The notes under the pieces were generated by a model. That model ran no database searches. It saw nothing but the letters and a program-made list of their open reading frames with translations, and was not told the DNA's origin. A stretch of 64,000 nt of DNA from Halichondria panicea (lineage: Eukaryota; Porifera; Demospongiae; Suberitida; Halichondriidae). Location of the stretch: assembly GCF_963675165.1 (NCBI RefSeq), contig NC_087380.1, positions 2,099,803-2,163,802 on the forward strand. The letters are read 5' to 3'. A program made the position numbers and the translations under genes. Shown piece after piece: positions 2,835 to 63,043 of the stretch (the first letter of the stretch is position 1; each line of letters starts with the position of its first letter).

Positions 2835-3332
2835 ATGAAGAAGTTACAAAGTGTCTCTTGGCTGGTCCTTTTGACTGGAGCTGCTCAGCTCCTACTAGTG
2901 TGTGGACAAAGTTTACCTGGTATGTTTACTTTCATGACCTCTGCCAGCCAGTTTATATCAATTGCATGCATACAGGAGTGTACCTATCTCTGGGATCAAC
3001 CATCATCACTAACAATACTGAGATCCTCATCACTGATATTGGAGAGGGTACTCTTCCCCTTCTCACCTGTCACACTGATCTAGTGGCCTGTTGTAGAAAA
3101 TCTGATACAATAGCAATGGAAAATCCAACGGGAGATTGGCACTTTCCAAATGGAAGTCCTATTCTTGTTGGTAGTAAAGCACTGTCAGATGCATCGTTTT
3201 ATATAAAGAGAAATGAACAAGTGGTGAGGCTGCATCGTAGAGAGAATATCAACCATCTGAGTCCAACTGGGACCTACTGTTGCACCATACCAACAACTAA
3301 TGCAGGGGAAATAACCATCTGTGCTAAATTGG
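2835..3332 (+). CDS. receptor A exons 1-2: signal peptide and Ig-like domain 1
   Basis: Exon 1 (2835-2919, 85 nt, donor gtatgt) gives [20 protein letters not shown] followed by LVCGQSLP: basic start, hydrophobic core and likely cleavage near the cysteine-glycine. Exon 2 (2976-3332, 357 nt) starts [11 protein letters not shown] and carries an Ig-like fold: Cys in LLTCHTD, a CC pair (ACCRK), Trp in DWHFPNG and a Y-C-C on the F strand (GTYCCTIP) ending CAKLG. The CC doublets are unusual for a V-type Ig and probably add a second disulfide. The same domain opens B, C and E. Confidence 0.8.
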
Positions 3333-6300
3333 GTGAGTGAGCCAGCTAGTACTGAAAACTATTATGAGGTCTACACAATGGTCAATAGCCAGCCAAAAAG
3401 CAGTGTAATAAGGCCAGTAATCACTGTAATGTTCGGAAAATGACCGCTGATTTTGTTATCCCGCCAGCTAAGTACTATCTCGCCAAATTTCCCTTTCATA
3501 TTTCAATGCAGTCTCGTGCCTGTCCCTCCCTCCCCTGACCAATGGGATGATCTCCTACTCTGATCCAACACTGGGTGCAGGAAGTGTAGCTACCTTCATT
3601 TGTGAGCCTGGATATATAATAAATAATGACAGTAGTAGGATATGTGGAGATGATGGAATGTGGAGTGAGTCCAGTCAACCAAACTGCGTTGGTGAGTGCC
3701 CTTGTCTTGTTGTATATCTGCTATGTATACGTAGCCGCAGCTGTTAAATAATGTACGGCCCCTTTGATTATTTTCTGTATATACATTGTACAGTCTCATA
3801 TACCTAGCTATTTTCATTTCTGCAGCCACCCTAACGGCAATGGTCTGTCCTGAATTGATGGATCTAGTCAACGGAACTATCATGTATAACATGGAGACCA
3901 TTAACAACAGATCAGTGGGCACTGTGGCCACCTACACTTGTAACCCTGGATACACTCTCAATGGAGACAACACTACGATTTGTGAGAGTGGGGGGAGTTG
4001 GAGTGAGTCAGATCAAACTTGTGAAGGTTGGTTAGCTATGCTGTATAGTTGCATATAATTATTATCATCTCAATACATCATGCTATTTTTTCCGTTATAT
4101 ATCCATGCAGCCATTGTATGTCCTCCTCTACTAACCATTACCAATGGCACCATATACTACTCTCCTAATGTCAGTACTCCTTACTTTGACCTGGAAACTT
4201 ATGCAACCTATATTTGTGAGGCTGGATTCAATATCAATATCATTAATCAGGTACGAACGTGTATAGACGATGATGGATTGGACGCCATTGGAATGTGGAG
4301 TGGCCAGGAACCAAGCTGTGTCTGTAAGTTATCAGCGAAAGTGTATCTTGTACTGTACGAATCCGAATATGTATAGAGTATGGTCATGCATGCATGTGCA
4401 TATTTACACAGTCATCACTTGTCCCTCTCTTCTCCCTGATAATTCCCACACCTCAATAATCTACCTAAGTGACAACACCACACCACCTTTCCCCTATGGA
4501 ACACGAGCGAATTATACCATCGACTGCCCTGAGGGCATGGAGAGGGACGGAGGAGACGATGTGAGGACTTGTATTCGTAATGGCAGTAGTGCAGTGGGTA
4601 TGTGGAATGGAACTGCTCCAACCTGTACAGGTACGTATATAGGTCAACCAACACCAATACCTTAGAATAAAGTTATATAGCCAAAAAGATCGATCACGTG
4701 TTATAATGTTGGTGCATTCGAATGGGCTCGAGGTTAATGTGCATGGTACGAGGTGAACGCTACACAGAATAAATTAACATTATCTTGGTTATAATTATAG
4801 GTGTGTTCTATAAATCAATGTTTCGGTCACTTTTCTTCAAGTTTCAACCTCATTATTATGCTTCGGTGTTTGGATGCAGTGAGGTATACAGTATATAGTG
4901 TGTTGTTTGTGTGTGTGTCTGTGTGTATGTACTGCTATATATAGCTGCTCAATGATAAATAAAGTGCAAGTAAGAGCTTTCATAGGCCTCTTTAAAATCT
5001 TTTTTTACTTGGATTTGAATTTGTAGATTTGCAAAACAATGGAGATATGGCTACTTTGAAGGCCACTGCAGTATTTTCAGACTCGTGTGTAGCAAAATCT
5101 GTTGATATAACTTACGTTGTAGCTATTCTATACTTATAGGAGTTAGCACACTAATTAGCTGCAATAGTGGGGAAAGAGCTGCAGACTTGCACTGTTTCAA
5201 GAATGCAGCAGCCATTAATAAATGTACTGGCAACCTTCTTAGCAACAATCAGGGTCAATCCATCCCCACTCTCTTGCACAATTCTTGCATGTAAGTAGCT
5301 AAAGTATTTAGCTGTGCTGCTATCATTCCACTGAGGCATCATCACCCACAGTGCTGTAATTTTATACAGCCACAGATACAATGGACTGTACTGATCTGAT
5401 GGATCCTGTCAATGGAGGTATCACTTACGATATTGGCACCACTGGTAACAGACCAGTGAAAACTGTGGCCACGTACGTCTGTGATACTGGCTACATGCTC
5501 GAGGAAGATGCCAACACCACTAGAACTTGTGATAGTGCAGGGAGATGGAGTGGGTCAAAACCAGAACCATTTTGTACAGGTTAGAAACACACAAAACACC
5601 TGTGTATGTAGGAAAGGGGGTGCTGTGCTAAATGTTATTCTCTTCTGCAGCAAAACAGTGCAGAAAATTGTCTCCGCTGAAAAATGGAACGATCATGTAC
5701 AATGCTAGTACTCCTTATTACCTGAATACCACAGCACTGTACAAGTGTAATGATGGGTATTTCCTGGAGGGAAAATTTCAGAGGAACTGCACTGCTGGAG
5801 AGGTGGACAATATCAATGGGTTGTGGACAGGACACGCACCAACATGTACCCGTAAGTGACTTAAATTGCTGAAATCCCCTATTATGTACATTTTCAGCTA
5901 TTCAGTGTCCCTCAATTGATGCTCTCGAACCGATTACCGATGGATCCATCACATACGCTCCTGATATGGTTGCAGACTTTGATCTGGGCACTGTGGCCAC
6001 TTATGCCTGTGACGCTGGATTTGTTCTGGACCTCTCCCTAGGGAGATCTGAGATGAGAATGTGTGTGGATGATGATGGACTGGATGCCATTGGAGTGTTT
6101 GATAGACAGGCTCCAAGATGTGTTCGTAAGTGTTGACATACTTAACCTTTGATAGAATTTGTTTCACAGCTATTGAGTGTCCTTTTCCGCCGGATATTGA
6201 AAATGGCATGGTGTCCTACGACTCTGATATGATTCCTAACTTTGGCCTGGGAACGAAGGCAATTTATAGCTGTAACAATAGGAATGCGTCTGACAGTGTC

Positions 6301-9300
6301 AAGACCTGCATGGTAGATGATAATGAAATAGATGTTGCGATGTGGAGTGGACAGAACCTTCACTGTGCTCGAAGTCACTAGTTATGTACAGCTATACATA
6401 CATTGCGCTATTGGGCTATTGGTTCTGTGGTTTATGGTAATACGGCCCTTGCACTGCCCCCTGGCTCTGCCTCCCCCTTTATTTCCCACTATTATCACCT
6501 ACTGTCTTCCCCTTTCTTTCCAATATCTCTGAGTATGTGTTTAATGTGGTGTAATTGCAGCCATCACTTGTACCCGTCTCCCTGATCATACCCACACTTC
6601 AATAACCTACTCTACTGACACCACACCACCTTTTCTCTTTGGAACACGAGCAATGTACACCATCAGCTGCCCTGAGGGCATGGAGAGGGACGGAGGAGAT
6701 GATGTAAGTATTTGTACTGGTGATGGCAATAGTACAAGTGCAGTGGGTGTGTGGAGTGGAACTGCTCCAACCTGTACAGGTATGTATTTCCTACACTTGT
6801 ACATAATTATATGGACATTGCTAAAGTTTGTTTTTGCCTACAGCTCAGAAGGTGTATCTATCTCATGGGGACACACTCTACTATGTCAACAATAGTGCCA
6901 TCATCATTTCAAGCATTATGACAACAGACAACAAATCCTTGACCTGTCACACTGACTCAACCACTTGTTGTAGAGGTGATGACAATCCAGTGGAATCTAA
7001 TGGTTTCGGACAGTGGCTGTTTCCTAATACAATGAAGATTGCCCGGCAGAACAGTATCACTGGTAGTGGGTTCTATTGGAGGAGAGACTACCAAGTTGTC
7101 AGACTCTTTCGTCAAGGTGATATTCAGACTCCGCTGGGAACCTACTGCTGTAGAATACCTGATGGTACTGGAGAGATGAGGACATTCTGTGCTAACATCA
7201 TTGGTAAATTAAATTGTTAATGACTTAATTGATAATCCTTCTCAGCAATACGATGTGACCCGCTGATGACTCCTCCTGATAATGGAAATGTGATTTACTC
7301 AAATAAATTGGACGATGACAATTACATCTTTGGTACAGTAGCCACCTACACTTGCTCTCCTGGTTATAGTCTGAGCAGTACTCAGAGTCGAACATGTATC
7401 ACTGATAATGGTGGAGGGACAATCGGGAGATTCAGTGGGAATGAACCAACCTGTGATCGTGAGTTGATTTACTGTAATATTGATATAATCCAATAATTAA
7501 TTTCCATAGGTATCACGTGTTCTGCTCTTCCAAGCATCACAAATGGGTCCATTAATTACGCTAGTGGTACTACTGCACCATACGACTATGAAACAACAGC
7601 TACTTATCAGTGCAACAATGGACATGTGTTAACAAGTGGAGATATTGTGAGGACCTGTACTGGTGATGGTAGCAGTCATAGTGTTCAGTGGAATGGAACT
7701 GCCCCCTTATGTCCACGTATGTTTTAGTGTTTTGTATTTTATCACATGACACATGATGTACACACACAGCTGTGGACTGTAGACCTCCTCCGTCTATTAC
7801 CAATGGATCTCCTGGGATACCAACAACCACAAAATTCACAGGGAGAGTGACCTACACCTGTGTCACTGGATATTGGATATCTCCCAGAGTCACCACAGCA
7901 ACGGCTACCTGTATGGCTGACAGGACCTGGAGACCTCTGCCAACTTGTTCACGTATGTGAATATCTACCCAACTTGTGCATTGACGTAATTATTGTTCTC
8001 ACCCACTCAGTTGTTGACTGTGGCTCTCCTCCCACTGTTCCCAATGCATCTCCAGAAACCTACCAAGGGACAGTGACCTACACCTGTGACACTGGGTATG
8101 AAGTCTTCAATGGAATCACCGCAGCAACGGCTACCTGTCAGGATAACGGAAACTGGAGATCTCTACCAACTTGTACAAGTATGGTTCAGGGATTTTTTTA
8201 ACTTCAGAATTGTACATCATAATTATGTACATGCAGTTGTGAACTGTGGTGATCCTCCCACTATTCCCAATGGATCTCCTGGGACACCAACCAGCACAAC
8301 ATTTGGAGGGACAGTGTCTTACACATGTAATAGCAATAGATATCACATGTCAGATCCAGCCACTGTGACTTGCGAGGTTAGTAGGAGTTGGAGCACAAGA
8401 CCAACTTGCTCAGGTTTGTGAAACATAATTATAATAGTGACATGCATGATTGTTAATAGCCATCTGCAATGACCATCAAATTGAAAACGGTGACATCGAC
8501 TATGATCCTAATACCACACCGAGAACAGAGGGAGCCATTGCCTTGTACTCATGTGTGTCTGGTTACCAGCTGTCTGGTGTGATATTTAGGACCTGTGTGG
8601 ACGCTCGTAGTGGAACGGGTGGTGTGTGGACTGGATCAATACCAAGCTGTAAAGGTATGAAAACAAAGAAATCTCTATTCCCTATTGTATGTACATTTCC
8701 AATGTTGCAGCAATCTGTGTTAGTCTCACCCTCACCCATGGAGTGATCAGTTACAGTCCATCTACTACTCCCAGACTGGAGGATACTGTGTCTACACACA
8801 GCTGTGGTGAGGGATACGGACTGTTTCCTAGCGTGACAACGAGAACATGTCAGCCTGACAGGACATGGAGTGGAGAGGACATCACTTGCCAACGTAAACA
8901 TTGGGTACCGTATAGCGGGTATATTTCGAGGGTATAGATGTTCATGGTTTTCTCTGATCAAGCATGTACCGCGAACGTTTATACCCACGAATTTAATATC
9001 GCATGCATGCATGATGCAGAAAGGCTGCTATTCCGCGAAATTTTAATCTGCAAAAACCTTTCTAACGGTCAATCCGTGAAAGTTTATACCCTCGAAATAC
9101 GGTTTATCATAGATACTACACTAATTTGTGTATTGTCCACAGGTATCATGTGCTCTGCTCTCCCTAATGTTACGAATGGGACGATTGATTACCCTAGTGG
9201 TACTACTGCATCATATGACTATGAAACAATAGTTAGATATCAATGCAACCTTGGACATGTGTTAACAAATGGAAACAGAGCGAGGACCTGTTCTGGTGAT

Positions 9301-12300
9301 GGTAGCAGTCCTAGTGGTCAATGGGATGGTACTGCTCCTCAATGTCCACGTATGTTTATATTGTATTGGTCGTGTCACATGACAATGTACACACACAGCT
9401 GTGGATTGTGGGACTCCTCCGTCTATTACCAATGGATCTCCTGGGATACCAACAACCACAACATTCACAGGGACAGTGACCTACAGCTGTAATGATGGCT
9501 ATGCACTCTTTGGGATTGCTACAAGTACTTGTCAGGCAAATAATTCCTGGAGCAGACCACCAGAATGCAGAGGTACATGTGCACATTCAGTGTTTGTACA
9601 TATTACATGATATACACTAATGCATGATTAGATGTACACTAAGTAGAGTAAACAACCGATTATCGAACACGTGCTATCTTCGAACGCTTGTTCTCGAGGA
9701 CAGCAGCTCAGAGTACTAAGCTGATAGTACCTAGGTATAGACAAGGTAAGGCTCTATTCAAGTCCAAACTCACGGCCAACAAAAAGCTTCTTCGGCGGAG
9801 TGACAGGGCCAAATCTCAACTATTGGAACAAATTTAGTTTGAACATAGCCACAATTCTTTGAACTCTCTCTCTCTCGTATCGACAGAAGGCTCTAAGCTA
9901 GCTACAATGCATGACTGTAATCTATAATAATAATGGTGGCCTCTTGAAAAAGTCCAGTATTCCCATCAAAATCCGAACGATTAATACCTTTTTATTCAAA
10001 ATTTCCATTTTTTCCTAAAGTTGCAGTCTTACGTCATGGCTACACCGGAGATTATAATCGTTCGGATTTTAATGGCAATACTGGCTTTTTCAAGAGGCCA
10101 CCATTGTCTAACGGTTTGGAGTCAGACCTTGAAACCAGAGCTGTACATAGTTTACTAGTTGTAGATTACGGTCATGCATTGTAGCTAGCTGCTTAGAGCC
10201 TTCTGTCGATACGAGAGAGAGAGAGTTCGAAGAATCGTGGCTATGTTCGAACTAAATCTGTTCCAATAGTTGAGTATTGGCCCTGTCACTCCGCCGAAGA
10301 AGCTTTTTGTTGGCCATGAGTTTGGACTTGAATAGAGCCTTACCTTGTCTATACCTAGGTACTATCAGCTTAGTACTCTGAGCCGCTGTCCTCGAGAACA
10401 AGCGTTCAAAAATAGCACATGTTCGATAATCGGTTGTTTACTCTAAACATAATTATAGTTAGTTGTATTGACTGTGAGCCCCTATATTACAATCAACTGA
10501 TTATATTTATTGCAGCCAATGTAACTGCACTGGCCTGTACTGATCTGATGGATCTAGTCAATGGAGGTATCACTTATGATATGGAGACCATTAACAATAG
10601 ACCAGTGGACACTGTGGCCACCTACACCTGTAACGTAAGCTACACTCTCATTGGAGGCAGTACCAGGACTTGTGGGAGTGATAGAGTGTGGAGTGGGTCA
10701 GATCCAGTGTGTGAAGGTTGGTGGCCTAGTTGTAGTACCATAGGCACGCGTTATTAAGCGGCGGCGCCTATAATCCGGGCCAAAGAAGGATATAAGCGCT
10801 TAAATTGAAGAGCGCCTAGAACAGGATAGGGATTGGAAACTACCCGGCCTCACTGTGTAAACAGTTGAAACACTCCGTGTTGTGATTTAGCGATCACAAA
10901 TATTTTCGTGTGTTGATCTTTCTGTGGTTGTATTTTAACTGTTTTTATAGCTCTCCTATCCACTAGCGATCACTCAGGGGCTGGGAGCCTCAGGTACTCT
11001 AGGTTTACACCACTGAGTCTGTTTTCTTTACTCTGTTTTCAATTTTTGTTGAACCACTGCACTCTACGTCACTTTTTCTCTTTCCCTGCTGTGAAGCCAA
11101 AACAGCAAAGGACGTTGCTTGATATCTAAGTATTACATAGAATGGCTTCTTCATGCTATAGATAAGCTGTACTGTTCATAAACGTTTTCAGTATAATATT
11201 ATATATAGTCCTTCAAACAGTTTTAAACACATCACGGACCTTAATTGACCTCCCACAACTTCATATTAGATCCCACTTGAATATTTTTGCTTATTGTTGC
11301 CAAGTGCTCTATTTCTAATAGAGCACTTGGCAATAGCGTGCTCTATTAAATGCTTCAGGCTATGTACATTGTATTGTCATTTACAAGGAGAGATGCACAT
11401 GTAATAACATGATTGTAGCTAGATGCTAGCACAGTTTGTAGAATGGCTCTATAGTTTTTTCTTTTGGCTTTGTTCGAGAATAGTAGGAGCCGCTCGTTTC
11501 TTGGGCAGTATGCTGTGCTTGTTTACTGCAAGGCTGCATGGGGGAGGGAGCTGGATGTAGGGAAGTGCTGGAATTCTAGCTTTGTTTCTTCCTTTCGTTT
11601 GTTTGAGAGTAGTATAGGAGATGCTCATTTGCTGGGCTTATTGCTGCTTAGGTTTCTTCCTTTCGCTTTGTTCGAGCCTATGGCATACTACCAAAAAAGT
11701 ATGCTAGGCTTGTTTCCTGAAAAAGCGGGGAGGAGTTGGACAGTTCCATTTTGTGGGTGGAGTTAAGACTATAATTTTGTCCATTAAACTGAGGTATGAT
11801 GAATAGAGACACAGATTTAGTAGAGCCACTGAGATGCCAACTTTTCAGATATTAATTTTCAAAAGAAATGATGCAGTTGCTAGGTTGACTGTTTATATAG
11901 GTTGACTATTGCTTAAGCTAGTGCATTTCTAGTAGCCAATAGGTTTTGGGATCTAAATGGGTTAGATAATGTGCATTCGGTAATTACATAGGGGCTATTC
12001 CTTTGTATAGCTAGTAGCTGCATGAGTGGCTTAGTCGACCATTTAGAGTTAAATTCTCTTTACTTTTTAGCATAGTCAACATTGCACAGTTCAATTTCTA
12101 TGTACAGCACATTGTATGGCAGTCAAGAGTTAGACAGGTACACGAGCATGCTGACAAATAGTTTTAGCCACACCCTATAGCTAACGCGGAGTGTTTCACG
12201 TGCACATTTTGTTTCTAATCCCTGTTACTGTTTTATTTATGGCCTAAGAGATTGGAGCTGGACCTATGCTTATAACGGTGAGTGCCGCTTATATCAACAA

Positions 12301-14260
12301 ATAGCGCCTAATAACGTTTGCCTACGGTATGCACAGTACGTTACAATCATGGTACTACTGTGTTGAGCAATATTAACAGGTCGTTTTCTCCTACAGCCGT
12401 TGTGTGTCCTTCTCTACTGACCATTACCAATGGCACCATCTCCTACTCTCCTGATGTCACCCCTGACTATGACCTGGGAACTGAGGCAACCTACACTTGT
12501 GAGGCTGGATTTTATCTTGAGGGTAATGAGGTACGAGTGTGTATGGATGATGATGGAATGGACACTATTGGAGTGTGGAGTGGTCAGGAGCCAAGCTGTG
12601 TCAGTAAGCTATCCGCTTCTGTAACATGTGTGGTAATTATAATTATTAACATATATCCACTTTGTACAGCCATTGAGTGTCCTTCTTTACCGGATATTAC
12701 AAATGGTATGGTATCCTACAAATCTGACAATTCGGATAACTTAGCCCTGAGAACTGTGGCCACCTACAGCTGTACCGCTGGGTTCTTCCTGGATGTGTCT
12801 GAAGGAGATGAAGTTAGGACCTGTTTAGACGATGATGGAATGGACACCATTGGAATGTGGAGTGGTCAGGAGCCAAGCTGTGTCTGTAAGATATCAGCCT
12901 AATTAAGCAACTGCATTGTGTGTTTGGAAATTTCCACTATTGTATCTAGTACTGTCCCTATCTCCCTGATCATGGAGTGAGGTAATTTGCAAAATGCCAG
13001 TCAAGTGATTCATGAGCTATTTCTTGTTTCCCCAGTCGTCCCTCCTCCTATACGCTCAGTGTTGTTCCAACTCAGGCTCACCAACATTAATAACTGTCCT
13101 GACTGGGTGGTGAGTTCAATCATGCAGGAGCAGATGAGGGGATGGAGCGTCTTACTACGCAGATTCTGTATCATCTAGCTATGTACAAATTATGTCATAT
13201 AATTATGTCAAACCGCTAAGTGCTGCTATAACATTACACTATTATTAGATCAAAACGCGTTATCAGCCGCACTTAGCACATTACAAATAATTAAAGAGTG
13301 CGGTTATAAGACGATAGTGAATCCGCAATAAGATCCCCTCATCTGCTATTGCTATTATATTTAACAATTAACGTTATCTGTAAATTTATAATTATTTCTC
13401 TCTCTACAGGACCAGGATGGGAGGATAGAAGCTGTGATGAGTGCGTTTGCTATCGAGGTGAAGAGCCACTGTGGGTGTGGTTTCTCAAGCATGGTCATGA
13501 CTGCCCCTCTCTTCCGCTGCTTCCCTGGGTCGGACAGAGCTGTCACATTCCAAGCTTTTCTATCCGATTCCAGGCTCCTCACTCCTATACAGGACTGGAT
13601 ACAAACCAATGGATTCATTCCCATTCAGAATGTACTGATTGAGGTGGACAAGTCTTGTCCGGTGCAGATATCGAGCCTTGCAGACACAGAGTGCACCAAT
13701 CAGCCTACAGCTGCAGGGAGCAGTGACATAGCCGCTGTGGTTGGTGGAGTGGTGGGAGGAGTTGTCATTGTTCTTATCATTGTAGTTGGCATTGTTGTGA
13801 TAGTGATTGCTTATTTTGTGTTCAAAAACAAGAGAGAGAAGCTAACCGTCAACAAAACAGCTAAGTGAGTCAATAGTTGTATTACAAAGATTATGTGATT
13901 TTGCAATTTACTATACCTCCCTCTCCCTCCAGACCTGACCTACCACCAGTGTCACTAAAGGGTGTGGTCAATACTAGTGAAATACAACCATACGAGATGA
14001 TGGAAATGGGTCACGAATACGAGGAAGTGTCGAAGTTCCAACAAGTCGTCGGTGGAGAGTACGAGATCATTGGAGCACCCTCACAGACAACTGGCTCCGA
14101 GAGCAAGGCTGCTATAAAGACCGAGTCATCACCACCCACTCCACCCACACCACAACCCTCACAAGTGACTAAGGCTGCCGGAAATGATATTGAGTTTACA
14201 GAGTGTGTTGCTTACAGCACGACCACCCACAGTCCCCCCCCACAGCCTACAGGCTTATGA
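2835..14260 (+). CDS. receptor A: SP-Ig-CCP(9)-Ig-CCP(12)-membrane domain-TM-Tyr tail
   Basis: Multi-exon type I membrane receptor, about 1,953 residues if all exons listed under its blocks are joined (5,862 nt). Order: signal peptide, Ig-like 1, nine CCPs, Ig-like 2, twelve CCPs, two-exon membrane-proximal domain with TM helix, tyrosine-rich tail. The start is the ATG of MKKLQSVSWLVLL, shared by all six paralogues. Every internal ectodomain exon is a multiple of 3 and starts and ends in phase 1, and the last three exons run phase 1 to 0, 0 to 2, 2 to stop, which fits one continuous frame. CCP domains usually mediate adhesion or complement-type recognition; the ligand is unknown. Oddities: the CCP8 donor is lost, and introns at 9573-10515 and 10717-12396 hold transposable elements. 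A single membrane and tail set means this is one gene. Confidence 0.8.
3512..6779 (+). CDS. receptor A: CCP exons 1-9
   Basis: Nine one-exon CCP/sushi domains: 3512-3691, 3826-4026, 4111-4323, 4412-4630, 5370-5579, 5651-5851, 5898-6125, 6170-6370, 6561-6779. Each shows the CCP pattern: Cys near the start, NG.(I/V).Y, a Y.C in the middle, G(Y/F), a third C (RTC or VRTC), W.G and the last Cys. All lengths are multiples of 3. CCP8 (6170-6370) ends CAR but is followed by gaagtcac instead of gtaagt, so its donor lacks GT. It is probably skipped, which the phase allows. The intron 4631-5369 is long for this gene and resembles one in receptor F (around 59380-59600). Confidence 0.8.
6844..7203 (+). 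CDS. receptor A: Ig-like domain 2 exon
   Basis: A 360-nt phase 1-1 exon reading [58 protein letters not shown] and FCANIIG. It shares with Ig-like 1 the CHTD..CC, W..PN, and TYCC...FCAN landmarks but is a separate lineage, with close relatives in C (34871-35230), D (42092-42454) and E (49579-49941). In all four it is preceded by a CCP containing RERGGDD or MERDGGDD, so this CCP-Ig pair moves as a unit. Confidence 0.8.
7246..9572 (+). CDS. receptor A: CCP exons 10-18
   Basis: Nine CCP exons: 7246-7458, 7510-7716, 7770-7952, 8011-8178, 8237-8413, 8460-8654, 8711-8893, 9143-9349, 9399-9572, all multiples of 3 with phase 1 borders. Subtypes can be recognised and recur in the same order in [86 protein letters not shown]. 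So B and A share a block of ancestral CCP order and not only single domains. The intron 8894-9142 holds a small inverted-repeat element. Confidence 0.8.
8908..9102. mobile_element. MITE with CCGTAT... ends
   Basis: Short element in an intron of receptor A. Left end CCGTATAGCGGGTATATTTC is roughly inverted at the right end, where tataccctcgaaatacgg precedes 9103. The centre repeats cgaa and gttta-type motifs. No coding. It is a non-autonomous DNA element by structure; the family is not assigned. Confidence 0.55.
9645..10444. mobile_element. foldback element, 800 bp, arms about 370-390 bp
   Basis: A long, nearly perfect inverted repeat. The left arm starts agagtaaacaaccgattatc (9645) and the right arm ends gataatcggttgtttactct (10444). 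Matching landmarks along the arms: ccgaagaagctttttgttgg against its complement, acctaggta, and ggtggcctcttgaaaaagtc near the centre. Only a short loop remains around 10000-10045. No ORF inside. It lies in the intron between CCP18 and CCP19 of receptor A, so it can be spliced out, though the transcript would carry a very stable hairpin. Confidence 0.8.
10516..12885 (+). CDS. receptor A: CCP exons 19-21
   Basis: Exons 10516-10716, 12397-12603 and 12670-12885. The first ([21 protein letters not shown]) is the CTDLMD subtype also found at 3826, 5370, 36939 and 59833. The second ([20 protein letters not shown], ending SGQEPSCVS) is the subtype that sits near the membrane in every paralogue. The third (AIECPSLPDITNGMVSY) has its counterpart in B at 24496. 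A 1.7-kb intron with a transposable element splits the first from the second. Confidence 0.8.
10749..12316. mobile_element. DNA element with degenerate terminal inverted repeats
   Basis: The left end cgttattaagcggcggcgcctat and right end atagcgcctaataacg are inverted. Further in, tagggattggaaac and ttgaaacactccgtg at the left match the complement of gtttctaatccctgtta and cgcggagtgtttcac at the right. No transposase ORF seen. Inside, 11460-11770 carries loose repeats of ttcttcctttcg.tttgttcgag. A fragment of the right end recurs at 23150-23230 in receptor B. Ends are approximate. Confidence 0.5.
13036..13864 (+). CDS. receptor A: membrane-proximal domain and TM helix
   Basis: Exon 13036-13109 (74 nt, phase 1 to 0) reads VVPPPIRSVLFQLRLTNINN and CPDWV. 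Exon 13410-13864 (phase 0 to 2) reads [40 protein letters not shown], then a strand-rich stretch ([20 protein letters not shown]), [13 protein letters not shown], a linker ending AAGSSD, a TM helix of Val/Ile/Gly type ([20 protein letters not shown]) and a basic stop-transfer KNKREK. The extracellular part is conserved in A, B, C and F and absent from D and E. From memory it resembles a cysteine-containing membrane-proximal domain common in sponge receptor proteins; I cannot name a database family. Confidence 0.75.
13207..13333. repeat. small imperfect hairpin in receptor A intron
   Basis: The sequence gctaagtgctgctataac and tcagccgcacttagc are partly inverted, with agtgcggttataag further on. 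It looks like a decayed MITE inside the intron between the two membrane-proximal exons. Ends are approximate. Confidence 0.35.
13933..14260 (+). CDS. receptor A: cytoplasmic signalling tail
   Basis: Last exon, phase 2 start, stop TGA at 14258-14260, about 109 residues. Motifs in order: [17 protein letters not shown], containing YxxM (PI3K p85 SH2 type) and YEEV five residues later; GEYEIIG; the proline-rich [12 protein letters not shown]; and TECVAYSTT. The YEMM/YEEV pair resembles an ITAM but the spacer is one residue short of the usual 6-8, and Met replaces Leu/Ile. Tyrosine phosphorylation by Src-type kinases followed by SH2 recruitment is the expected use. The same tail is kept in B to D. 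Confidence 0.8.
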
Positions 14261-15600: not shown

Positions 15601-16343
15601 ATGAAGAAGTTACAAGGTGATTGTGTAGTTTGGCTGGTCTTTTTGACTGGAGCTGCTCAGCTCTTACTAGTGTGTGGAGAGGGTATGTCTTTCGTGACAT
15701 CTCCAGCCACTCAGTATATAAATGTTATGTGATTGTGTGCAGGAGTGTACCTATCTCTTGGATCAACCAACATCACCACTAACAACACTGAGATCCCCAT
15801 CACTGATATTGGAGATTATTTTGGAAATGGTTGTCCCACTCTCATCTGTCACACTGACCTCGTGGCATGTTGTACACCCTATGAGACAATGATGGCAAGA
15901 GGATTTGGACTCTGGCGCTATCCAAATGGGGCTCGTGTTCCTGGTATATCAGGATCCAACTCAGCATATCGACCGTTTGTGTCATTTAGAAATGTTCAAT
16001 CTATTCAACTGATTCGTAGAGAGAGTGTTAACCCCCCTCCCCTGAGCCCAACTGGTTCCTATTGTTGTATTATACCAACTATCGGAGGAGAGATGACATT
16101 CTGTGCTAACCTAGGTGAGTGGTTCAGCAATATTCACTATTAGTTCAATCCACTATCCCCTTCTAGTTGTGTGTCTGTCTCTCCCTCCCCTGACCAATGG
16201 TATAGTCTCATATAACGACTCAATACTGGGTCTGGACACTCTGGCCATCTACACCTGTGACACAGGCTACACTCTCGAAGGAAACATTACCAGGACTTGT
16301 GAGAGGGATGGAGTGTGGAGTGGGTTAGCTCCATTTTGTGAGC
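15601..16343 (+). CDS. receptor B: signal peptide, Ig-like 1, CCP1
   Basis: Exons 15601-15682 ([20 protein letters not shown], then LLLVCGE), 15743-16114 (Ig-like 1, 372 nt: [57 protein letters not shown]) and 16167-16343 (CCP: VVCLSLPPLTNGIVSY). Ig-like 1 is close to those of C and E, about one substitution per several residues, while the A copy is more distant. Confidence 0.8.
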
Positions 16344-28034: not shown

Positions 28035-28045
28035 TGTCCTTATGC

Positions 28046-51500: not shown

Positions 51501-51919
51501 TCCCTCCCTGGTGATCGGTTTCTGCACTGTTGTGGTTTGGATCGAGCCCACAAGGTCGTATGGGAGGATCACTGGCTATGACGTCAGGTTCATTCCTCAA
51601 GGGTCTGGTTCAGATTTGGTGGTGTCCAAAGGAAGAAAAGAACTTTTCCACGCCATTGGAGATGATACCAGGCTCATCAGTACTGATAACGCCATGGTGC
51701 AGGTATGACTATACACATTGTATTTTAGCAATGCAATGTATATGTATATTGTTCAGGTGAGAGCAAAAACGTCAGTTGCAGAGGGGAGGTGGAGTGAGGT
51801 AGTGCCATTGGGTAAGTTTTGTGTGTGATTACACCAAGTTCCATGTCACTATACACTTTAAATGCATCGTTCTATGTACAGGTTGCAAGAATACTGAAGG
51901 TTCCACTGACCCTATATGA
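47299..51919 (+). CDS. receptor E: SP-Ig-CCP(5)-Ig-CCP(3)-GCC-FN3(2), apparently secreted
   Basis: Joined exons 3,204 nt, 1,067 residues plus stop. Starts like the family ([20 protein letters not shown]) but after the last CCP continues into an Eph-receptor-like cysteine-rich exon and two FN3 domains, then a short final exon (CKNTEGSTDPI, stop TGA 51917-51919). No TM or signalling tail was found downstream; a relic of the tail's 3' flank lies at 52255-52480. So either a soluble decoy-type protein or a truncated receptor. Eight CCP exons are counted as 5 and 3 around Ig-like 2. Confidence 0.75.
48565..49470 (+). repeat. segment shared with receptor D (offset 7,477 bp)
   Basis: Matches 41088-41993 at a constant offset of 7,477 bp, including the 150-bp repeat, the vestigial CCP start, the CCP exon 49016-49234, its 74-bp intron and the start of the next CCP. 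Nearly identical through exon and intron; differences grow after about 49330. This is a very recent duplication or gene conversion between D and E. Confidence 0.85.
49016..50704 (+). CDS. receptor E: CCP4-5, Ig-like 2, CCP6-8
   Basis: CCPs 49016-49234 (AIECPPLAGITNGFITYTID) and 49309-49518 (NICQPLFPYPYGTIIYHHEI); Ig-like 2 49579-49941 (ARGIFLSFQGTTYTTNN, STICCRGVDSS, WLFPNG, PLGTYCCRI, FCANLIG); CCPs 49990-50208, 50268-50477, 50531-50704 (AVDCGTPLSITNGSHGIP, last Cys present). Same module order as in D. Confidence 0.8.
50767..51919 (+). CDS. receptor E: Eph-like GCC exon, two FN3 domains, C-terminal end
   Basis: Exon 50767-50934 reads ICPVGTYHEELSTGESACVP, CPGNTFSIVESSVECTCFRG and YYRTKLEGPNFPC, the cysteine-rich GCC2/GCC3-type element of Eph receptors, with the same GYYR...PC end. 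Exon 51046-51369 is FN3 (TITVRWERPKITGRDDFYYN, LRPLTTYTVRVIPENGVSDQ), again the Eph order. A second FN3 spans 51491-51702 and 51757-51811 (VVVWIEPTRSYGRITGYDVR, GRWSEVVPLG). The last exon 51882-51919 ends the frame after 12 residues. The full set is what precedes the TM in Eph kinases, but no TM or kinase follows. Confidence 0.75.
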
Positions 51920-53438: not shown

Positions 53439-55183
53439 ATCTAGCCTCGATTCAAGGCCGATTAAAATACGGCCTGGTACCTATTGCAGAGGTGATAGTG
53501 CGCATGCGCTTCAAATTACCCAGGATATGGGTAATCGTACTACGAACGTAAAACCTTAGTAAATTACACAGGAAATTAGTCCGTTTACTAAAAATATGTT
53601 CCGTAATACTTTATCTCTATGACTGAGTTCTGAAAAGCTGTGGCTTATGCCGTCTATTGCGTTGGTCTAGAAGGCTTGAACACTAGTTTTAAGACAGAAG
53701 AGGCTCTCATCTACGTCTAGGATGGTCCTATAGCCGGGTAGTCTTCGCAAGTAGCAGTTTGAGGCACCATACACTTCCCATAGCCTGTACAGATCCAAGG
53801 TAAGACATCCTGACCATACAACCGTCATAGAGGTAGATGAGAGCCTCTTCTGGCTTTAGACTAGTGTGAAAGCCTTCTGGAACAACACAATAGAGAGCTA
53901 AGCTGATGTACAAAGATAGAAAATAGATGAGAGAAAGAAAAAGGGGATTCCCCAGATTCTGGAGAATAAACTAACCCATGCGCACTATCACCCCTGCAAT
54001 AGGGCCACTCCTCTTCATAATTTATGTAAATGATATACCTGACATTATAACCTATTCCAGCTGCTTCCTTTTTGCTGATGATGTCAAGTTACTAAAGACC
54101 ATAAATACTATGGAAGATCACCAAAGGCTTGAAGATGACCTAAAGGCAATCAGTGATTGGTGTAAGCAGTGGAACTTAGCCCTAAATCCCACCAAATGCA
54201 GTGCAATTCAGTTCTCCACCCAAACTCCATCTCAAGAATTAGCCCCTTACACCATTGGCCAGAGTGATATTCCCTTTGTAAATTCACAGAAAGACCTAGG
54301 ACCTAGGCTAGGTGTAATAGTTTCAAATAGCCTATCGTGGAACATGGAGCGAACATTTTGACCTTATCTGCTCCAAAGCCTACCAAGCGCTCTATGTTAT
54401 CAGAAGAAATATACCTCCCCACTCACCCATACAACTGAAGAAAATACTAATCTATATTGCTCACTGGTGAAATCCCAAATATCTTACTGCTGTCAATTGT
54501 GGCGGCCGCAACTTATAAAACATATTCAAAGTCTAGAAAGAATACAGCGTAAAGCAACGAAGTATATTCTGAATGACTACTCAAATAACTATAAATATCG
54601 ACTTCTTGAGCTTAGGACTCTACCGCTCATGTACTGGCTTGAAATCCAAGACATAATGCTGTTAATCAGGAATCTGAAAGACACATCTGATGCAAATGAC
54701 TTGAAAAAGTACATAAAGTTTGTTAATAATAGGACAAGAGCAAATGGTGTCAAACTGGAGCACAAATTCGTGAGGCTAACGACTACAAGAAATTTCTTTT
54801 TCATCCGTATAGTCCGGCTCTGGAATGCGCTCCCAAGAGGTGTTTTGGATCTAGAGTCATCGTTGAACAAAACAAAACACACCTTACAAAATACCTGTGG
54901 AAACATTTTATGGAGAACTTCGACCCGAACAATCTTTGCACCTTTCATTTTCTCTGTCCGTGTTACAAATGTATAGCTAATACACGTACATACCATGTAT
55001 AATTACCATGTATATATATATAATTACTAAGCTGTTCCTTAAGTGGTCCAAGCTTTCAGTGACTCTATAGCTTTATTTTAAATATGTCACTAATATCACA
55101 CTGTATAATATCACTGTAAAGATATATATTATTATTAATAGGTACCAGGCCGTATTTTAATCGGCCTGGAATCGAGGCTAGTA
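53439..55183. mobile_element. composite element with CCTCGATTC ends containing a LINE fragment
   Basis: Outer inverted ends: tagcctcgattcaaggccgattaaaatacggcctggtacctat at left and the complement of ataggtaccaggccgtatttta...gaatcgaggcta at right (about 40 bp). Inside, a second inverted pair (ctattgcagaggtgatagtg at 53480 and cactatcacccctgcaatag at 53986) bounds a smaller element, which itself has a hairpin around agaggctctcatctac (53690) and gtagatgagagcctct (53833). Similar outer ends occur singly near 52732 and as a short pair at 57339-57411. Confidence 0.65.
54003..54976 (+). mobile_element. LINE reverse-transcriptase fragment
   Basis: Reads GPLLFIIYVNDIPDIITYSS, CFLFADDVKLLKTINTMEDH (FADD catalytic motif), NLALNPTKCSAIQFSTQ, then a frameshift and stop near 54360, and KSQISYCCQLWRPQLIKHIQ, LERIQRKATKYILNDY, LRTLPLMYWLEIQD and RIVRLWNALPRGVLD. 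This is the C-terminal half of a non-LTR retrotransposon ORF2, Jockey/CR1-like in motifs. The 5' half (endonuclease) is absent. It starts exactly where the inner inverted element ends, so one is inserted beside or into the other. Confidence 0.8.
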
Positions 55184-57461: not shown

Positions 57462-57645
57462 GATGGATGCAGGTTCAAGAGGATCCCCGTGTACAGAGAC
57501 CCTGCTGGGAGGTACGGATTTGCATCACCATTCGAATTTGGCTCAGTTTAGTTCTGTACTATGTCACCAACACGATGGAGAAACACAACCCTGAACTGGA
57601 GACAATGCTTAGATACCCTGCATTCCATGTGTACAGGGGCCGTTA
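57462..57645 (+). pseudogene. terminal SH2 exon relic (unit E-F)
   Basis: Reads RFKRIPVYRDPAGRYGFA, SPFEFG, then an 11-bp deletion (gactctctgct is missing) brings in a TAG stop. The end MEKHNPELETMLRYPAFHVY is still visible in another frame. Gly of GGYGF is Arg here. Confidence 0.6.
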
Positions 57646-58642
57646 GTAACTGAACTAGCAGCTGTACAGTATTGTATGTGTATTTATTTTCTGTGTACGT
57701 GGGTGCATGTATACACTCATGCAGTTTTGATGTGTGGAAATTTCAATTCAAATTCCTGTTGTCATCATTTATAATAAAGTCAACAAAACCAATGAATGCA
57801 TGTGCATGCATGCATGAAGATAACATGAAGAAGTTAGGTGATTGTGTATCTTGGTTGGTATTTGACTGGAGCTGCTCAGCTCCTACTAGTGTGTGGACAA
57901 AGTTCACCTGCAGCTGGTATGTTTACTTTCATGACCTCTGCCAGCTCTAGCATGCATAGTGTAATAAATGTTAATTGGATGCATGCAGAAGTGTACTTAT
58001 CTCATGGATCAACCAACATCACCACTAACAACACTGAGATCCCCATCACTGATATTGGAGAGGATGCTGTGGGTGGTCTGCCCTCTCTCATCTGTCAGAC
58101 TGACCTCACCGCCTGCTGTAGAAGTCACGCTGAGAACAATGGTAATGGAGGACTGGGACAGTGGGGACGTATCCTGATGGGAGTGTGATACTGAACAATG
58201 CTGGGTCAACGGCTGCTGGACAGCAGTTCTACATTGTGAGGAATGCTCCACAACTCATCAGACTGGCTCGTAGACAGTCCAACAACCCCCTGAGTCCAAA
58301 CTGGGTCCTACTGCTGTACCATACCAACTACTGGAGGAGAAATGACCCTCTGTGCCAATATTAACCTGGGTGAGTGAGCTAGTGCATGCTATAGTACATG
58401 CAGTGCATGCATGATGGATACATGTGCATATGCGACAATATGTATATATAATAATTATTTTTCTGGTGAAATTAAAAACAAATTACCTTTTGCCATCTAA
58501 CTATTGCATTCTGCCAAGGATTGTATATATTTACCATGCAGTATACAAATTTAGGTTTTGCTATTTTATTGTTGCAAATTGATCACCTCGCAAAGTTCGC
58601 GTATGGTGTAATATATTTATAGTGATACATGCATGCATACAG

Positions 58643-60338
58643 TTGTGGACTGTTGCCCGCCTCCCACTATTCACAATGGATCTCCTGGAACACGAACCAG
58701 CACAGCATTTGGAGGGAGAGTGTTTTACACGTGCAACAATAGATACCGTATGTCAGGATCAGACACTGTAACTTGTGAGGCTAGAGGGAGTTGGAGCACA
58801 AAACCAACTTGCTTAGGTCTGTGAAACATAATTGTGGTGCTGTATAGTGGGAAATTTTCACGTGTGAACGTTTTTGCCATATGGCTCAAGAACCCTCAGA
58901 ATAAATGTTCGCAGTTTTCGTTTCAATGCCAAAAAACTATCAATCCCCCATATATACAAACAATGCACAGAGACACTATTTTGCCTTTTGGGATTGTGTG
59001 AAAGTAATTTGCTATCTTGAAAGTATTGAGTTCAAACTTCCTTTTTGGACCATGTGGAAGTAAAAACTTTCGATTCACCTTTTTAAAGCCAACACCCATG
59101 CATCAATAAAATATCCATACGTGGGAGTTTCTCCTAGTTTTGTGTTAGCTAATTAATGGTGCATGTTAGCTAATGGTAGGGTTGTTTTTAGCTGCGGCTA
59201 TTTTTTATATGCGGCCACCTCGCTATTCCGACCAAGCTGCACTTCCCAAGGGTGGCTGGATTAACGAGAGTCCACTAATAACTACTCTTTCACAAATCAT
59301 AAGAAATGGAAAAACAAATCAAATAAAAACGTTGGTAGTGATAACGGATTACAGAACTATAACTATGCCGTACGGTAAAGCTGACTGTGTGTGTCTGTGT
59401 GTGTATTCTAGCTGTAACTGCTCAACTGTTTACTAATGCAACGAAAACTAACATGTACAGTTTTGATAGCCATGTCCATTTGGATTATAATTTGTGGATT
59501 TGCAAAACTAAAGCTTCTTTCGGCTTTAGTTTTGCTTACTTGGAGGCCATTGAAGTCTCAGTTTAGACTCTTGCGTAGCAATATCTGTTAATTTATAGGA
59601 TAGTAGTTGTTTCTGCATGCAGTAAAGCAATAGTTGCAAAAGTTACACTGCCTTGCAATATATCCGTTGCATCAAGTTATTGCATCATGCAATGCTGCAC
59701 ATAGTACATGCCAACTTATAGTCTACCGCGTGCTGTTATTTTATTTTTAGCATTCGTTTCACAGTTATTCATTTCCTATAAATTATACTCAATTCATCAC
59801 TGTGTGCAAACTTGAACTATTCGTTATTACAGCTGCTGTAACTGCAATGGTCTGTACTGATCTGATGGATCTAGTCAATGGAGGTATTGTTTATGATATG
59901 AAGACCAAAGATAACAGACCAGTGAACACTGTGGCCACCTACACCTGTGACACTGGCTACACTCTCAATGGAAGCAGCACTACCAGGACTTGTGGAAGTG
60001 ATGGAGTGTGGAGTGGATCGGATCCAACGTGTGAAGGTTGGAGGCAACACGTTTACAGTCATGCACTCTGTGTTGAGCAATATTAATATTTCAAGTGTTA
60101 TAACAAGTTGTTTTCACTTGCGTGTATACAGCCATTGAGTGTCTTCCTCTACCGACCATTACCAATGGCATGATCTCCTACTCTCCTGATGTCACCCCTG
60201 ACTATGACCTGGGAACTGAGGCAACCATCACTTGTGAGGCTGGGTTCTATCTTGAGGGTAATGAGGCACGAGTTTGTATGGATGATAATGGAATGGACGC
60301 CATTGGAGTGTGGAGTGGTCAGGAGCCAAGCTGTGTCC
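58643..60338 (+). CDS. receptor F: three CCP exons
   Basis: 58643-58816 (VVDCCPPPTIHNGSPGTR), 59833-60036 ([20 protein letters not shown]) and 60132-60338 ([29 protein letters not shown]). Each has four CCP cysteines; the first carries an extra Cys beside the first (DCC). The intron 58817-59832 contains a MITE-like tail (ggctggattaacgagagtcc near 59250) and a block (59380-59600) matching receptor A 4900-5105. Confidence 0.75.
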
Positions 60339-60496
60339 GTAAGTTTAGCAATTGTAGTGTGTGTTTTGTGTTTTGCTACAGAACATTTGCCACTATGTTA
60401 GTCATACTGTAATGCATACGTACGTATAGTACTGTGCACCTAGATCTCTGATTGTTTATTGGCAAGACCTATTCATGAACTGTATCATTTCCCCAG

Positions 60497-61084
60497 TCGC
60501 ACCTCCTCCTGTACGCTCAGTGTTGTTCCAACTCAGACTCACCAACATCAACAACTGTCCTGACTGGGTGGTGAGTGCTAAGAATGTCCTAAAGCTAAAG
60601 TAAACTAACAATTACTTCTCTCTCTACAGGACCAGGATGGGAGGTTAGAAACTGTAACGAATACGTTTGCTGCCGAGGTAGAGAGTCACTGTGGGTGTGG
60701 TTTCTCAAGCATGGTCATGACTGCTCCCCGCTTCCGCTGCTTCCCCGGGTCGGACAGAACTGTCACATTCCGAGCCACTCTAACCGATTCCAAGCTCCTC
60801 ACTCCCATACAAGACTGGATACAAACCAATGGATTCATTCCCATTCAGAATATACTGATTGAGATGGACAAGTCTTGTCAGGTGCAGATATCGAGCCTTG
60901 CAGATACAGAGTGCACCACCAACCAGCCTGTAGCTGCAGCGATCATTTACCTAGCCACTGTGGTTGGTGGAGCGGTGGGAGGAGCGGTGGGGTTGATCCT
61001 TCTGGTGGGCGTTGTTGTCATAGTGATTGCTGTACTGTTGTTGAAGAGTAGGAGACAGAAGATGATCGTTCACAGAACAACAAA
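60497..61084 (+). CDS. receptor F: membrane-proximal domain and TM helix
   Basis: Exons 60497-60570 and 60630-61084. Reads [53 protein letters not shown], then AIIYLATVVGGAVGGAVGLI and a TM end LLLKSRRQK. More diverged than A to C but all cysteines are kept and the frame is open. Confidence 0.75.
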
Positions 61085-61275
61085 GTGAGTGAATCAATAA
61101 TTTTACTAGAGCATTGAAGTGCAAACCCTCGGCATTAATTTGTGATTTGATGTAGTCTACAGCCTCGAATCAAAGCCGTGTGTACATACATGTACATAGG
61201 CCACATGCAGCTTACTCGCTTTTATTCGAAAACGAAACATCAAAAAATAGCTAGCCAACTTTACTTGTTGCGTTG

Positions 61276-62624
61276 GGATAAACACAGTGCTAGCTATCTG
61301 AGTACACACAGAACAACAGACTGACTGACCGACTATATACTATAAAACTCGTGGCGCCGTGGCGCACCTCAGGTTAATTGTGTATCTCTCTACTGCTATT
61401 TCGACGTTTCACCGCTCGTTTAAGTAAGTGAGTGAGTAAGTAAGTTTCTTGCCCAGCATTTACTCCAAGTACAGCCATCTCCAGGACATTCTGCACAGGG
61501 TTTCCAAACGACTACAACCTGGATTACAAAGCGCTTCTTCAGATTTGCGATTGCTTCCACGAGGCAGATGACCTCTCAGTCTCTATTTCTCTTACCTAGA
61601 CAATTCCGCCATCTTTAATGACTCAGCAATTGCGTTGTGGCCAAAATTAATAATAGATAGGCGTGGTTAAGAAACCGTGTGCCTAAAATTCACTGGGTGG
61701 ATGAGTAAGGTGTTGTTGCTTTTCTTCACACTGTTCAGCTCTAGCTCCCTTTCTCTGACAAGCATGCTATATATGCACTGGCTAGATATCATGCTCTTAA
61801 AATGGCTGTCATTTAATACTGATTCACAAATTCAACATATCAAGCAATAATTATTACTCATTATTAGTCCAGAGATATTCTAGAAGATATCTGATTAGTC
61901 CTGTCTTCTCTTCTTGAACTTCTGTACTGCCTCTTGACGTTCCACTTGTACTGAAAAAGAAAGGGAACCCGACTAGAAAAACATTTGCAATGTGAAAAAT
62001 TGCTAGGATTGGCCAGGGGAACCACAAAAAAGCGTGGAAACAAGAAATCCGACGAGAGCATAACTCCAATCCGTTACAACGTCATAAACATGTACAATAC
62101 ATAGTATATAGACTGTGTTCCAGATCCATCTACCAGCTTCCATCCACCACATCATTCCATGCAGGTCACCAGTACGGTCCGTGCATGTTACTACGCATGG
62201 ATGGACTGTGTGTACCTGTGCTCAACACTGCATGTATTAGGAACATTAATTCATCACAAATCATCATGATTATATGCCCGCACATTCCAAAATGGATGTA
62301 TAATAAAAGGATTGGTCATCACCCACCAGTAAAAATTGCGTATTTATATTATATTGGCCGGGAAAACATGGAAAACTACCAGTACATGTGATTGATGTTG
62401 TAACGGATTGGAGTTATGCTCTCGTCGGATTTCTTGTTTCCACGCTTTTTTGTGGTTCCCCTGGCCAATCATAGCAATTTTCACATTGAAATGTTTTTCT
62501 AGTCGGATAAACACAGTGCTAGCTATCTGAGTACACACAGAACAACAGACTGACTGACCGACTATATACTATAAAACTCGTGGCGCCGTGGCGCACCTCG
62601 GGTTAATTATGTATCTCTCTACTG
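61276..62624. mobile_element. insertion with 120-bp direct repeats in the receptor F tail intron
   Basis: In other paralogues this intron is 68-105 bp; here it is 1,580 bp. A 120-bp direct repeat (ggataaacacagtgctagct ... tatctctctactg) lies at 61276-61395 and 62505-62624 with about three differences. Between them an inverted pair (gactagaaaaacatttgcaa at 61971 and its complement ending at 62504; arms about 110 bp) forms a foldback structure. No ORF. The second copy runs up to the acceptor region of the tail exon. Confidence 0.7.
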
Positions 62625-62664
62625 TTCTGAATTTGTTAACTATATCTACATTTCCCCTCCTCAG

Positions 62665-63043
62665 ACATGACCTACCACCAGTGTCGCTAAAGGGTGTGGT
62701 CAGTACTGGTGAGATACAATCATACGAGATAATGGAAATGGGTCACGAATACGAGGAAGTGTCCAAGTTCCAACGAGCCGTTGGTGGAACACCACCCTTA
62801 CATACAAGTGGCTCCGAAAGCAAGTATGTTATAAAAACTGAGTCATCACCACCCACTCCACCCACTCCACTCACTCCACAACCCTCACAAGCGACTAACG
62901 CTACTGGAAACGATACTGAGTTTACAGCGTGCGTTGCTTACAGCAGTGCACGACCACCCACAGTCGCCCCCCACATCCCACCAGCTTATGAACTAATACC
63001 CAATCCCCTGTATGCTACTGTTGACTATTTGCATATTGTATAA
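62665..63043 (+). CDS. receptor F: long cytoplasmic tail with extra tyrosine motifs
   Basis: Reads [49 protein letters not shown] and [20 protein letters not shown], ending YELIPNPLYATVDYLHIV and TAA-type stop at 63041-63043. The YEII motif of the other tails is replaced (GGTPPLHTSG). A 5-base difference (agcagtgcacgacc against agcacgacc) sets the frame that reads through the position where A to D stop at GGC TTA TGA. VDYLHI fits the ITIM consensus (I/V/L/S)xYxx(I/V/L); YELI and YATV are further YxxI/V sites. Confidence 0.75.

Follow-up and report, generated by a model that had tools for sequence, protein, structure and literature searches.

A sponge receptor array with common ectodomains on docking tails and receptor phosphatases: candidate paired receptors of Halichondria panicea

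A stretch of 64,000 nucleotides on contig NC_087380.1 of the sponge Halichondria panicea (C4:2099803-2163802; hereafter the window) carries six tandem genes for predicted single-pass receptors, the ectodomains of which are built mainly from immunoglobulin (Ig)-like and complement control protein (CCP, Sushi) modules. The window is one section of a larger array on the same contig, in which the same ectodomains occur with two different cytoplasmic ends: a tyrosine-rich docking tail and a receptor-type protein tyrosine phosphatase (PTP). The ectodomains being common to docking-tail and phosphatase genes, the array points to paired receptors more than to receptors with a fixed tail. As judged from sequence, the same ectodomains probably feed at least two phosphotyrosine outputs, perhaps opposed, and their use is possibly in immunity or allorecognition. 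An earlier note on this DNA, which had described a six-gene array with a constant signalling end and a fast-changing recognition end, was essentially correct but took in too little of the locus. The structure now appears to be one of paired, rewired receptors, and an immune or allorecognition function is still something we infer.

Common ectodomains with alternative ends

Upstream of the window, gene A (C4:2073770-2082423), which ends in a docking tail, adjoins gene P (from C4:2088066), which ends in a phosphatase. Over stretches of about 3.5-3.7 kb, which run from the start exon to the end of the CCP array, the two genes are 95% identical in DNA, whereas their ends are unrelated. They also differ in the number of near-identical full CCP repeats, with 10 in P and 15 in A, plus one short repeat in each. 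The model of gene P stops at 2099717, about 90 bases upstream of the window. Its cytoplasmic part comprises two Y_phosphatase domains (Pfam, E 4.3e-147), the first of which (D1) has the WPD loop (WPDHGVP) and the sequence HCSAGVGRTGT, while the second (D2) is degenerate.

A second pair is formed by window gene 1 and gene Q (from C4:2218222), which lie 116 kb apart and have the start exon in common. Their DNA is 87-89% identical in four colinear blocks from the start exon to window position 9574, after which they diverge; Q is without the part matching about 5.9-7.2 kb of the window. Past the point of divergence, Q continues with an Ig cassette, a transmembrane exon and two phosphatase domains, the second of which is covered in part. 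By their anatomy in the gene models, with a PTP domain bearing HCxxGxxR and a WPD loop behind a transmembrane segment, P and Q are receptor-type PTPs.

Gene 4 of the window joins elements of both kinds. The earlier note had recognised one membrane module, swapped or missing in two genes. Indeed, genes 1, 2, 3 and 6 carry this module (module A), no membrane module is found in gene 5, and gene 4 has a different cassette of four Ig-like exons, which represents a third membrane version. The cassette region is 81% identical in DNA to gene P over 1796 columns, introns included. In gene 4, a cassette and transmembrane exon of the P/Q type are joined to a docking tail. The space between the two parts holds a module-A transmembrane exon in relic form, which is read as the scar of a cassette exchange.

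Organisation and extent of the array

All six start exons of the window are on the + strand in head-to-tail order. Their ATGs are at 2835, 15601, 30847, 39894, 47299 and 57825, and the modelled proteins of genes 1-6 are 1858, 2236, 1540, 1164, 1034 and 569 amino acids long. This bears out six head-to-tail paralogues with one start exon, as previously proposed for 2835-63043. The very unequal ectodomains, put at 3 to about 27 CCPs, are found as well: a profile built from window exons and applied to the six-frame translation gives 21, 28, 14, 7, 8 and 3 CCPs in genes 1-6 (81 in total). All these matches are on the + strand and within the six genes, and one reversed and one shuffled window gave 0 matches. 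Pfam supports all four kinds of module that had been named (CCP, Ig, EGF and FN3), with matches to Sushi, to EGF_CA in gene 3, to ig in gene 4, and to fn3 and Ephrin_rec_like in gene 5. For the N-terminal "Ig" exon, module A and the tail, no Pfam match exceeds the family cut-off. In the gene models, most ectodomain exons correspond to one module and start in phase 1, so that modules can be gained or lost with the frame kept.

The gene models come from a script that uses splice-site and codon scores, forbids stops and works without transcripts; splicing is thus predicted. The models are anchored at the start exons and the tail stops (gene 5 has no tail stop). They contain dubious short exons in gene 1 (9704-9745 and 10951-10993), read through some introns of gene 2 and miss some CCPs detected by the profile, for example at 6172-6369 and 36617-36787.

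A single tail type had also been claimed. The docking tail is present in five of the six genes, but neither a tail nor a membrane segment follows the FN3 exons of gene 5 in the open reading frames of the window or in the gene model. The six genes are real, but the number six is set by the edges of the window. A search of the genome (131,455,214 bases, 39 contigs) at E 0.001 finds 37 matches to the tail; some are pieces of one tail, and all are on C4. Thirty-three tails were read, 5 in the window and 28 outside it: 25 at 1.88-2.19 Mb (cluster 1), which form one head-to-tail run entirely on the + strand, 7 at 0.12-0.23 Mb and 1 at 0.85 Mb. The N-terminal Ig exon has at least 150 matches in the genome, at least 138 of them on C4 among the matches listed, and module A has 131, with remote forms on several contigs.

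PTP matches extending into the active-site part of the profile number at least 49 on C4 between 0.09 and 2.61 Mb, at least 5 elsewhere on C4 and at least 9 on other contigs; these are matches counted by eye among those listed, not genes, and the active-site letters were read in P, Q and L049 only. Among the matches listed, none falls within the window, and genes 1-6 are not PTP-ended. By eye, L049 (0.46 Mb) is an Ig/CCP receptor with two phosphatase domains. At another locus, L050 (1.12 Mb), a short ectodomain of CCPs is combined with a tail that contains YETV and YEEI.

Histories and rates of ectodomains and ends

Genes P and Q are close in the PTP part (dS 0.14, dN/dS 0.12) but far apart in the first Ig exon, Ig-1 (dS 1.08, dN/dS 0.36), whereas the ectodomains of Q and gene 1 lie close together (dS 0.14, dN/dS 0.65 over 14 hand-picked segments, namely the start exon, Ig-1 and 12 CCPs, with partial and unmatched exons left out). 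Ends and ectodomains therefore differ in history. A tree of Ig-1 with 36 rows requires 5 changes to accommodate the seven phosphatase rows of this cluster, and well-supported branches force at least 4 of them; the phosphatase block at 0.33-0.48 Mb groups together. Repeated exchange of ends thus appears to have taken place in this cluster, although most end labels come from gene order.

Exchange is also seen within the module A exon. Its outer half exists in two versions, each present in both clusters, but its inner half goes by cluster (by eye, in an alignment of 25 rows from which the shorter L002, L004, L006 and L020 were dropped, with L009, L012 and L017 below threshold and gene 4 not entered). 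Close pairs give a dN/dS of 0.41 for this exon. That module A might be SEA-like is a guess from the order of the elements; the PDB profile matches are only to the transmembrane stretch and to unrelated chains, with a best E of 0.061. The predicted structure of the main exon (mean pLDDT 45.0, no Foldseek match at E 0.001) was not used as evidence.

The N-terminal Ig exon changes faster: its dN/dS is 0.54 when all 16 exons are taken together and 0.65 in the 60 close pairs. In blocks of ten codons, pN/pS is 1.0-1.15 between codons 40 and 80 and mostly 0.1-0.5 in blocks nearer the ends; two blocks within codons 10-30 reach 1.2-1.5, and silent changes are very scarce in one of the two. The change may best be described as relaxed or mildly diversifying, short of demonstrated positive selection. 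The assignment of this exon as an Ig domain is putative. Its best PDB profile match is the Ig of MuSK, at E 0.27; an AlphaFold model (mean pLDDT 41.7), whose top four Foldseek rows are Ig domains at E 0.67 or worse, was not used as evidence.

The docking tail and a SYK-type kinase

The 33 aligned tails begin with a motif that is mostly Y(E/D)(M/I)(M/I/V), followed by HEYEEV, GEY(E/D)(I/M)(I/V/L), a proline-rich linker and (V/I)AY. The first tyrosine is kept in 31 of the 33, that of YEEV in all, the third in 28 and the last in 32. The five tails that have lost the third motif are those of gene 6, L001, L004, L006 and L008. Within cluster 1 (24 of its 25 tails; the split tail of L006 was left out) and between clusters, dN/dS is 0.39 and 0.20 in the tyrosine block, 0.75 and 0.61 in the linker, and 0.40 and 0.24 in the C-terminal part. 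The tyrosine block is thus more constrained than the linker. The recognition end is the faster and rearranging one and the signalling end the constrained one, much as the earlier note had it. The signalling end is not of one constant type, however, because the same ectodomains occur with receptor tyrosine phosphatases.

By its motifs, the tail is similar to an immunoreceptor tyrosine-based activation motif (ITAM) without being a canonical one. Some tails of cluster 2 (L021, L023, L025 and L027) contain in-frame repeats of a THGPPPP-type unit, and most tails of this cluster end in a LYAN motif.

The genome also encodes a kinase of the SYK type. This gene (L047, C4:4841000-4850900, 9.9 kb) has two SH2 exons and kinase exons; the best PDB match of the second SH2 is SYK at 5e-39, followed by ZAP-70, and the kinase exons match PF07714. 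A second kinase gene (L045, C9:5252500-5260500) has the order SH2-ankyrin-SH2-kinase and is SHARK-like by eye.

The same tail motifs might instead be AP-2 sorting signals of endocytic or scavenger receptors and not SH2 docking sites. All three conserved motifs fit Yxx-hydrophobic, and CCP ectodomains would suit the binding of particles. The acidic context of YEEV and YEII, on the other hand, is that of Src-type SH2 ligands, and the presence of the same ectodomains on tyrosine phosphatases points to phosphotyrosine control as the common theme, so we give this explanation little credence.

Also improbable is a mostly neutral process of birth and death, in which tandem duplicates, many of them relics, would have no common function. 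It could account for gene 6, which looks frame-broken, for gene 5 without an anchor, for the module-A relic in gene 4 and for a stop in the tail at C4:1969827, outside the window. Moreover, the stop-free chains in genes 1-4 and A say little against it, because the gene finder forbids stops. However, tail tyrosines constrained across 33 copies and a dN/dS of 0.12 in the PTP part argue against such neutrality.

Proposed mechanism

Under the paired-receptor interpretation, the array would encode a large family of single-pass recognition receptors with Ig-like and CCP modules and occasional EGF, FN3 and extra Ig modules. The first output would be the docking tail, in which motifs of the YxxM/I/V, YEEV and YEII types would provide an ITAM-like site for the SH2 domains of Src-family kinases and SYK. 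The second would be a receptor tyrosine phosphatase with D1 intact and D2 degenerate. Docking-tail members would be phosphorylated by Src-type kinases and would then bind SYK, and perhaps PI3K, and phosphatase members would counteract or reset this signal. By binding outside the cell, a ligand would tip signalling towards its phosphorylation-driven or its phosphatase-driven side, much as happens with paired activating and inhibitory receptors. New pairs would come from tandem duplication combined with exchange close to the membrane exon, and existing ones would be renewed in the same way.

Several points weigh against this interpretation. Since Src kinases can be activated by receptor phosphatases, either arm could be the activating one. 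The tails deviate from the canonical ITAM, Yxx(L/I)-x(6-12)-Yxx(L/I): they have YEEV-x10-Y(E/D)(I/M)(I/V/L) in 28 of 33 cases, with V as the first +3 residue. The spacing of 10 residues is on the long side, and the second half is absent in 5 of the 33. For the whole tail, dN/dS is 0.51 within cluster 1 and 0.34 between clusters, the former a modest constraint. In gene P, the active-site exon of D1, which is open and in place, was skipped by the script and added by eye from its position and the model of Q, and the 3' end of Q lies beyond the stretch covered. The ends in the Ig-1 tree were labelled from gene models for A, P, Q and the window genes, and from gene order for the rest. Finally, dN/dS at the recognition end is below 1 overall (0.36 in Ig-1 of P versus Q), which does not demonstrate diversifying selection.

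A recognition-end dN/dS below 1 would also suit adhesion or tissue-patterning receptors, which would serve as developmental identity tags with LAR-type or Eph-type signalling and have no immune role. Ig-domain receptor phosphatases are known as adhesion receptors in other animals, and gene 5 contains FN3 and Ephrin_rec_like modules. Nevertheless, the copy number, the recent duplications, the tandem expansion of CCPs and the frame-broken members are unlike stable developmental receptors. These features are not decisive, but we regard a purely developmental role as unlikely.

A more far-reaching form of the paired-receptor interpretation, which we consider doubtful, sees in this contig arm the complex of immune and histocompatibility receptors of an animal from an early branch. 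The ectodomains of a very large set of Ig/CCP receptors would have been rewired repeatedly, through exchange at the membrane exon, from a docking tail of the SYK type to a phosphatase within the receptor or back. If true, the counter-acting arm would be an enzyme in the receptor and not an immunoreceptor tyrosine-based inhibitory motif (ITIM), which would make it a second paired-receptor solution outside vertebrates.

Comparison with known recognition systems

Like the sponge genes, the paired receptors of vertebrates (KIR, LILR, SIRP and FcR-like) are clustered, have near-identical ectodomains and undergo rapid duplication and exchange. Their phosphotyrosine outputs are opposite, whereas in the sponge the ends are different and their opposition would follow from analogy. 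The inhibitory arm in vertebrates is an ITIM that recruits SHP phosphatases, but here the phosphatase is within the receptor. The sponge ectodomains are also CCP-rich and much longer, and the two systems are likened by layout, not by sequence homology. Receptor-type PTPs in general are single-pass proteins with tandem D1 and degenerate D2 domains, as in gene P; in the sponge, however, the Ig/CCP ectodomain is common to the phosphatases and to non-enzymatic receptors. The sponge aggregation factor, too, is a gene family with a proposed role in self-recognition, but it is generally described as a secreted proteoglycan core and not as a signalling receptor. The ectodomains of the Hydractinia alr family are IgSF-like without CCP arrays, and we know of no phosphatase end in this family.

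By their description in the accessible part of PMC12065747, the alr proteins resemble the sponge genes as candidate allorecognition receptors that are encoded in one complex and have ITAM or ITIM motifs. The fester/FcoR locus of Botryllus, as described in the same text, is alike in being clustered, in its Ig/Sushi regions and in having genes in pairs, and FcoR contains cytoplasmic ITIM, hemITAM or core tyrosine motifs. The Botryllus FF and FcoR are different families as neighbours, whereas in the sponge one ectodomain has been duplicated onto two ends. CD45-like receptor phosphatases are given there among the pathway proteins in the ampullae, the contact organs of Botryllus, and this part of the source names no phosphatase-ended fester/FcoR. 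It also states that candidate allorecognition proteins are not conserved among sponges, cnidarians and ascidians, and that unrelated receptors from cnidarians to mammals have converged on ITAM/ITIM signalling (PMC12065747).

Ig exons similar to those of the array are known from sponge proteins. PMC8242945 reports sushi- and Ig-domain genes among the lipopolysaccharide-responsive genes of Halichondria panicea, as well as individual receptor repertoires, and PMC5336234 an R3-type receptor phosphatase in Amphimedon. In the accessible text of the open-licence literature, no array of paired docking and phosphatase receptors was found. If the interpretation is true, one ectodomain on a docking tail and on a receptor phosphatase would be a further, testable form of ITAM/ITIM convergence; in a sponge, it would extend this type of convergence to one of the earliest animal branches. 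A/P and gene 1/Q offer concrete pairs for measuring a ligand common to both members.

Features of the individual genes

The predicted features of the window genes are given in Table 1.

Table 1. Predicted features of the six receptor genes, in window coordinates
Feature	Position	Strand	Content
Gene 1	2835-14260	+	Signal/start exon; Ig-1 2976-3332; 21 CCP; second Ig-like exon 6844-7203
Gene 1, 3' part	13036-13109 and 13410-13864; 13933-14260	+	Module A; docking tail
Module A main exon (gene 1)	13410-13864	+	With transmembrane segment
Docking tail exon, reference copy (gene 1)	13933-14260	+	YEMM, YEEV, YEII, proline-rich linker, VAYS
Gene 2	15601-25891	+	Start exon; Ig-1 15743-16114; 28 CCP
Gene 2, 3' part	24864-24937 and 24995-25458; 25564-25891	+	Module A; docking tail
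Gene 3	30847-38595	+	Start exon; Ig-1 30987-31355; 14 CCP; second Ig-like exon 34871-35230
Gene 3, 3' part	35810-35932 and 36161-36289; 37579-37652 and 37708-38171; 38268-38595	+	EGF_CA; module A; docking tail
Gene 4	39894-45570	+	Start exon; 7 CCP; one second-type Ig-like exon 42119-42454
Gene 4, 3' part	43268-44659; 44856-44961; 45261-45570	+	Cassette of four Ig-like exons; transmembrane exon; docking tail
Module-A transmembrane exon relic	44993-45228	+	Stops and frame changes; between transmembrane exon and docking tail of gene 4 (by eye)
Gene 5	47299-51919	+	Start exon; Ig-1 47429-47788; 8 CCP; second Ig-like exon 49606-49941
Gene 5, 3' part	50767-50934; 51046-51369 and 51491-51811	+	Ephrin_rec_like; FN3; last model exon weak
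Gene 6	57825-63043	+	Start and Ig exons with apparent frame breaks; 3 CCP
Gene 6, 3' part	60497-60570 and 60630-61084; 62665-63043	+	Module A; docking tail, third tyrosine motif gone

Gene 2 contains near-identical units of 512 bp with two CCPs each at about 16.4-19.4 kb. The model of gene 4 has no N-terminal Ig exon, and Pfam supports the first two of the four Ig-like exons of its cassette.

Anchorless members, gene 5 included, may be either secreted proteins or dead genes. Gene 5 was also considered as a receptor tyrosine kinase on account of its Ephrin_rec_like and FN3 modules; the window gives this no support, as no kinase exon is found among the downstream open reading frames. The long open reading frames downstream of gene 5, at 53975-54973, are reverse-transcriptase-like by eye and contain no kinase or tail. 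In the cluster copies L041 and L042, which are of the gene 5 type, no tail occurs within the 4.8-5.9 kb read past the FN3 exons. In another FN3-type copy (L044, C1:13181600-13187000), the FN3 exons are followed by CCP-like exons, a transmembrane segment and a different tyrosine tail with YEVV and YEPL.

Gene 6 is likely decaying. A frame-broken start exon like that of gene 6 follows the gene 5-type copy in L042 (3794-4006), and duplication of the gene 5/gene 6 unit may have taken place after the break. The last intron of gene 6 holds an inverted-repeat element (61857-62568) that is also present in L042 (1247-1917), beside the gene 5-type copy at C4:1.95 Mb. A further inverted repeat, of at least some 180 bases and with matching open frames on both arms, lies in an intron of gene 1 (9652-10437) and is likely a mobile element. 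The window has no tRNA and no Rfam match. In the genome, a silicatein motif gave 0 matches, and PF00137 pointed to no small mitochondrial contig.

Receptor kinases at C4:2.52-2.76 Mb were considered as a third wiring of the same ectodomains. This found no support in the one 9.4-kb stretch covered (L055), whose ectodomains do not look like Ig/CCP. The region contains a cluster of tyrosine kinase matches, and L055 has tyrosine-rich parts ahead of the kinase. Two other groups of kinase matches were noted: at least 15 lie close together on one strand at C10:1.70-1.94 Mb, most of them in long open frames, and at least 26 of near-equal score are spread over about 1.8 Mb on both strands at C1:15.5-17.4 Mb.

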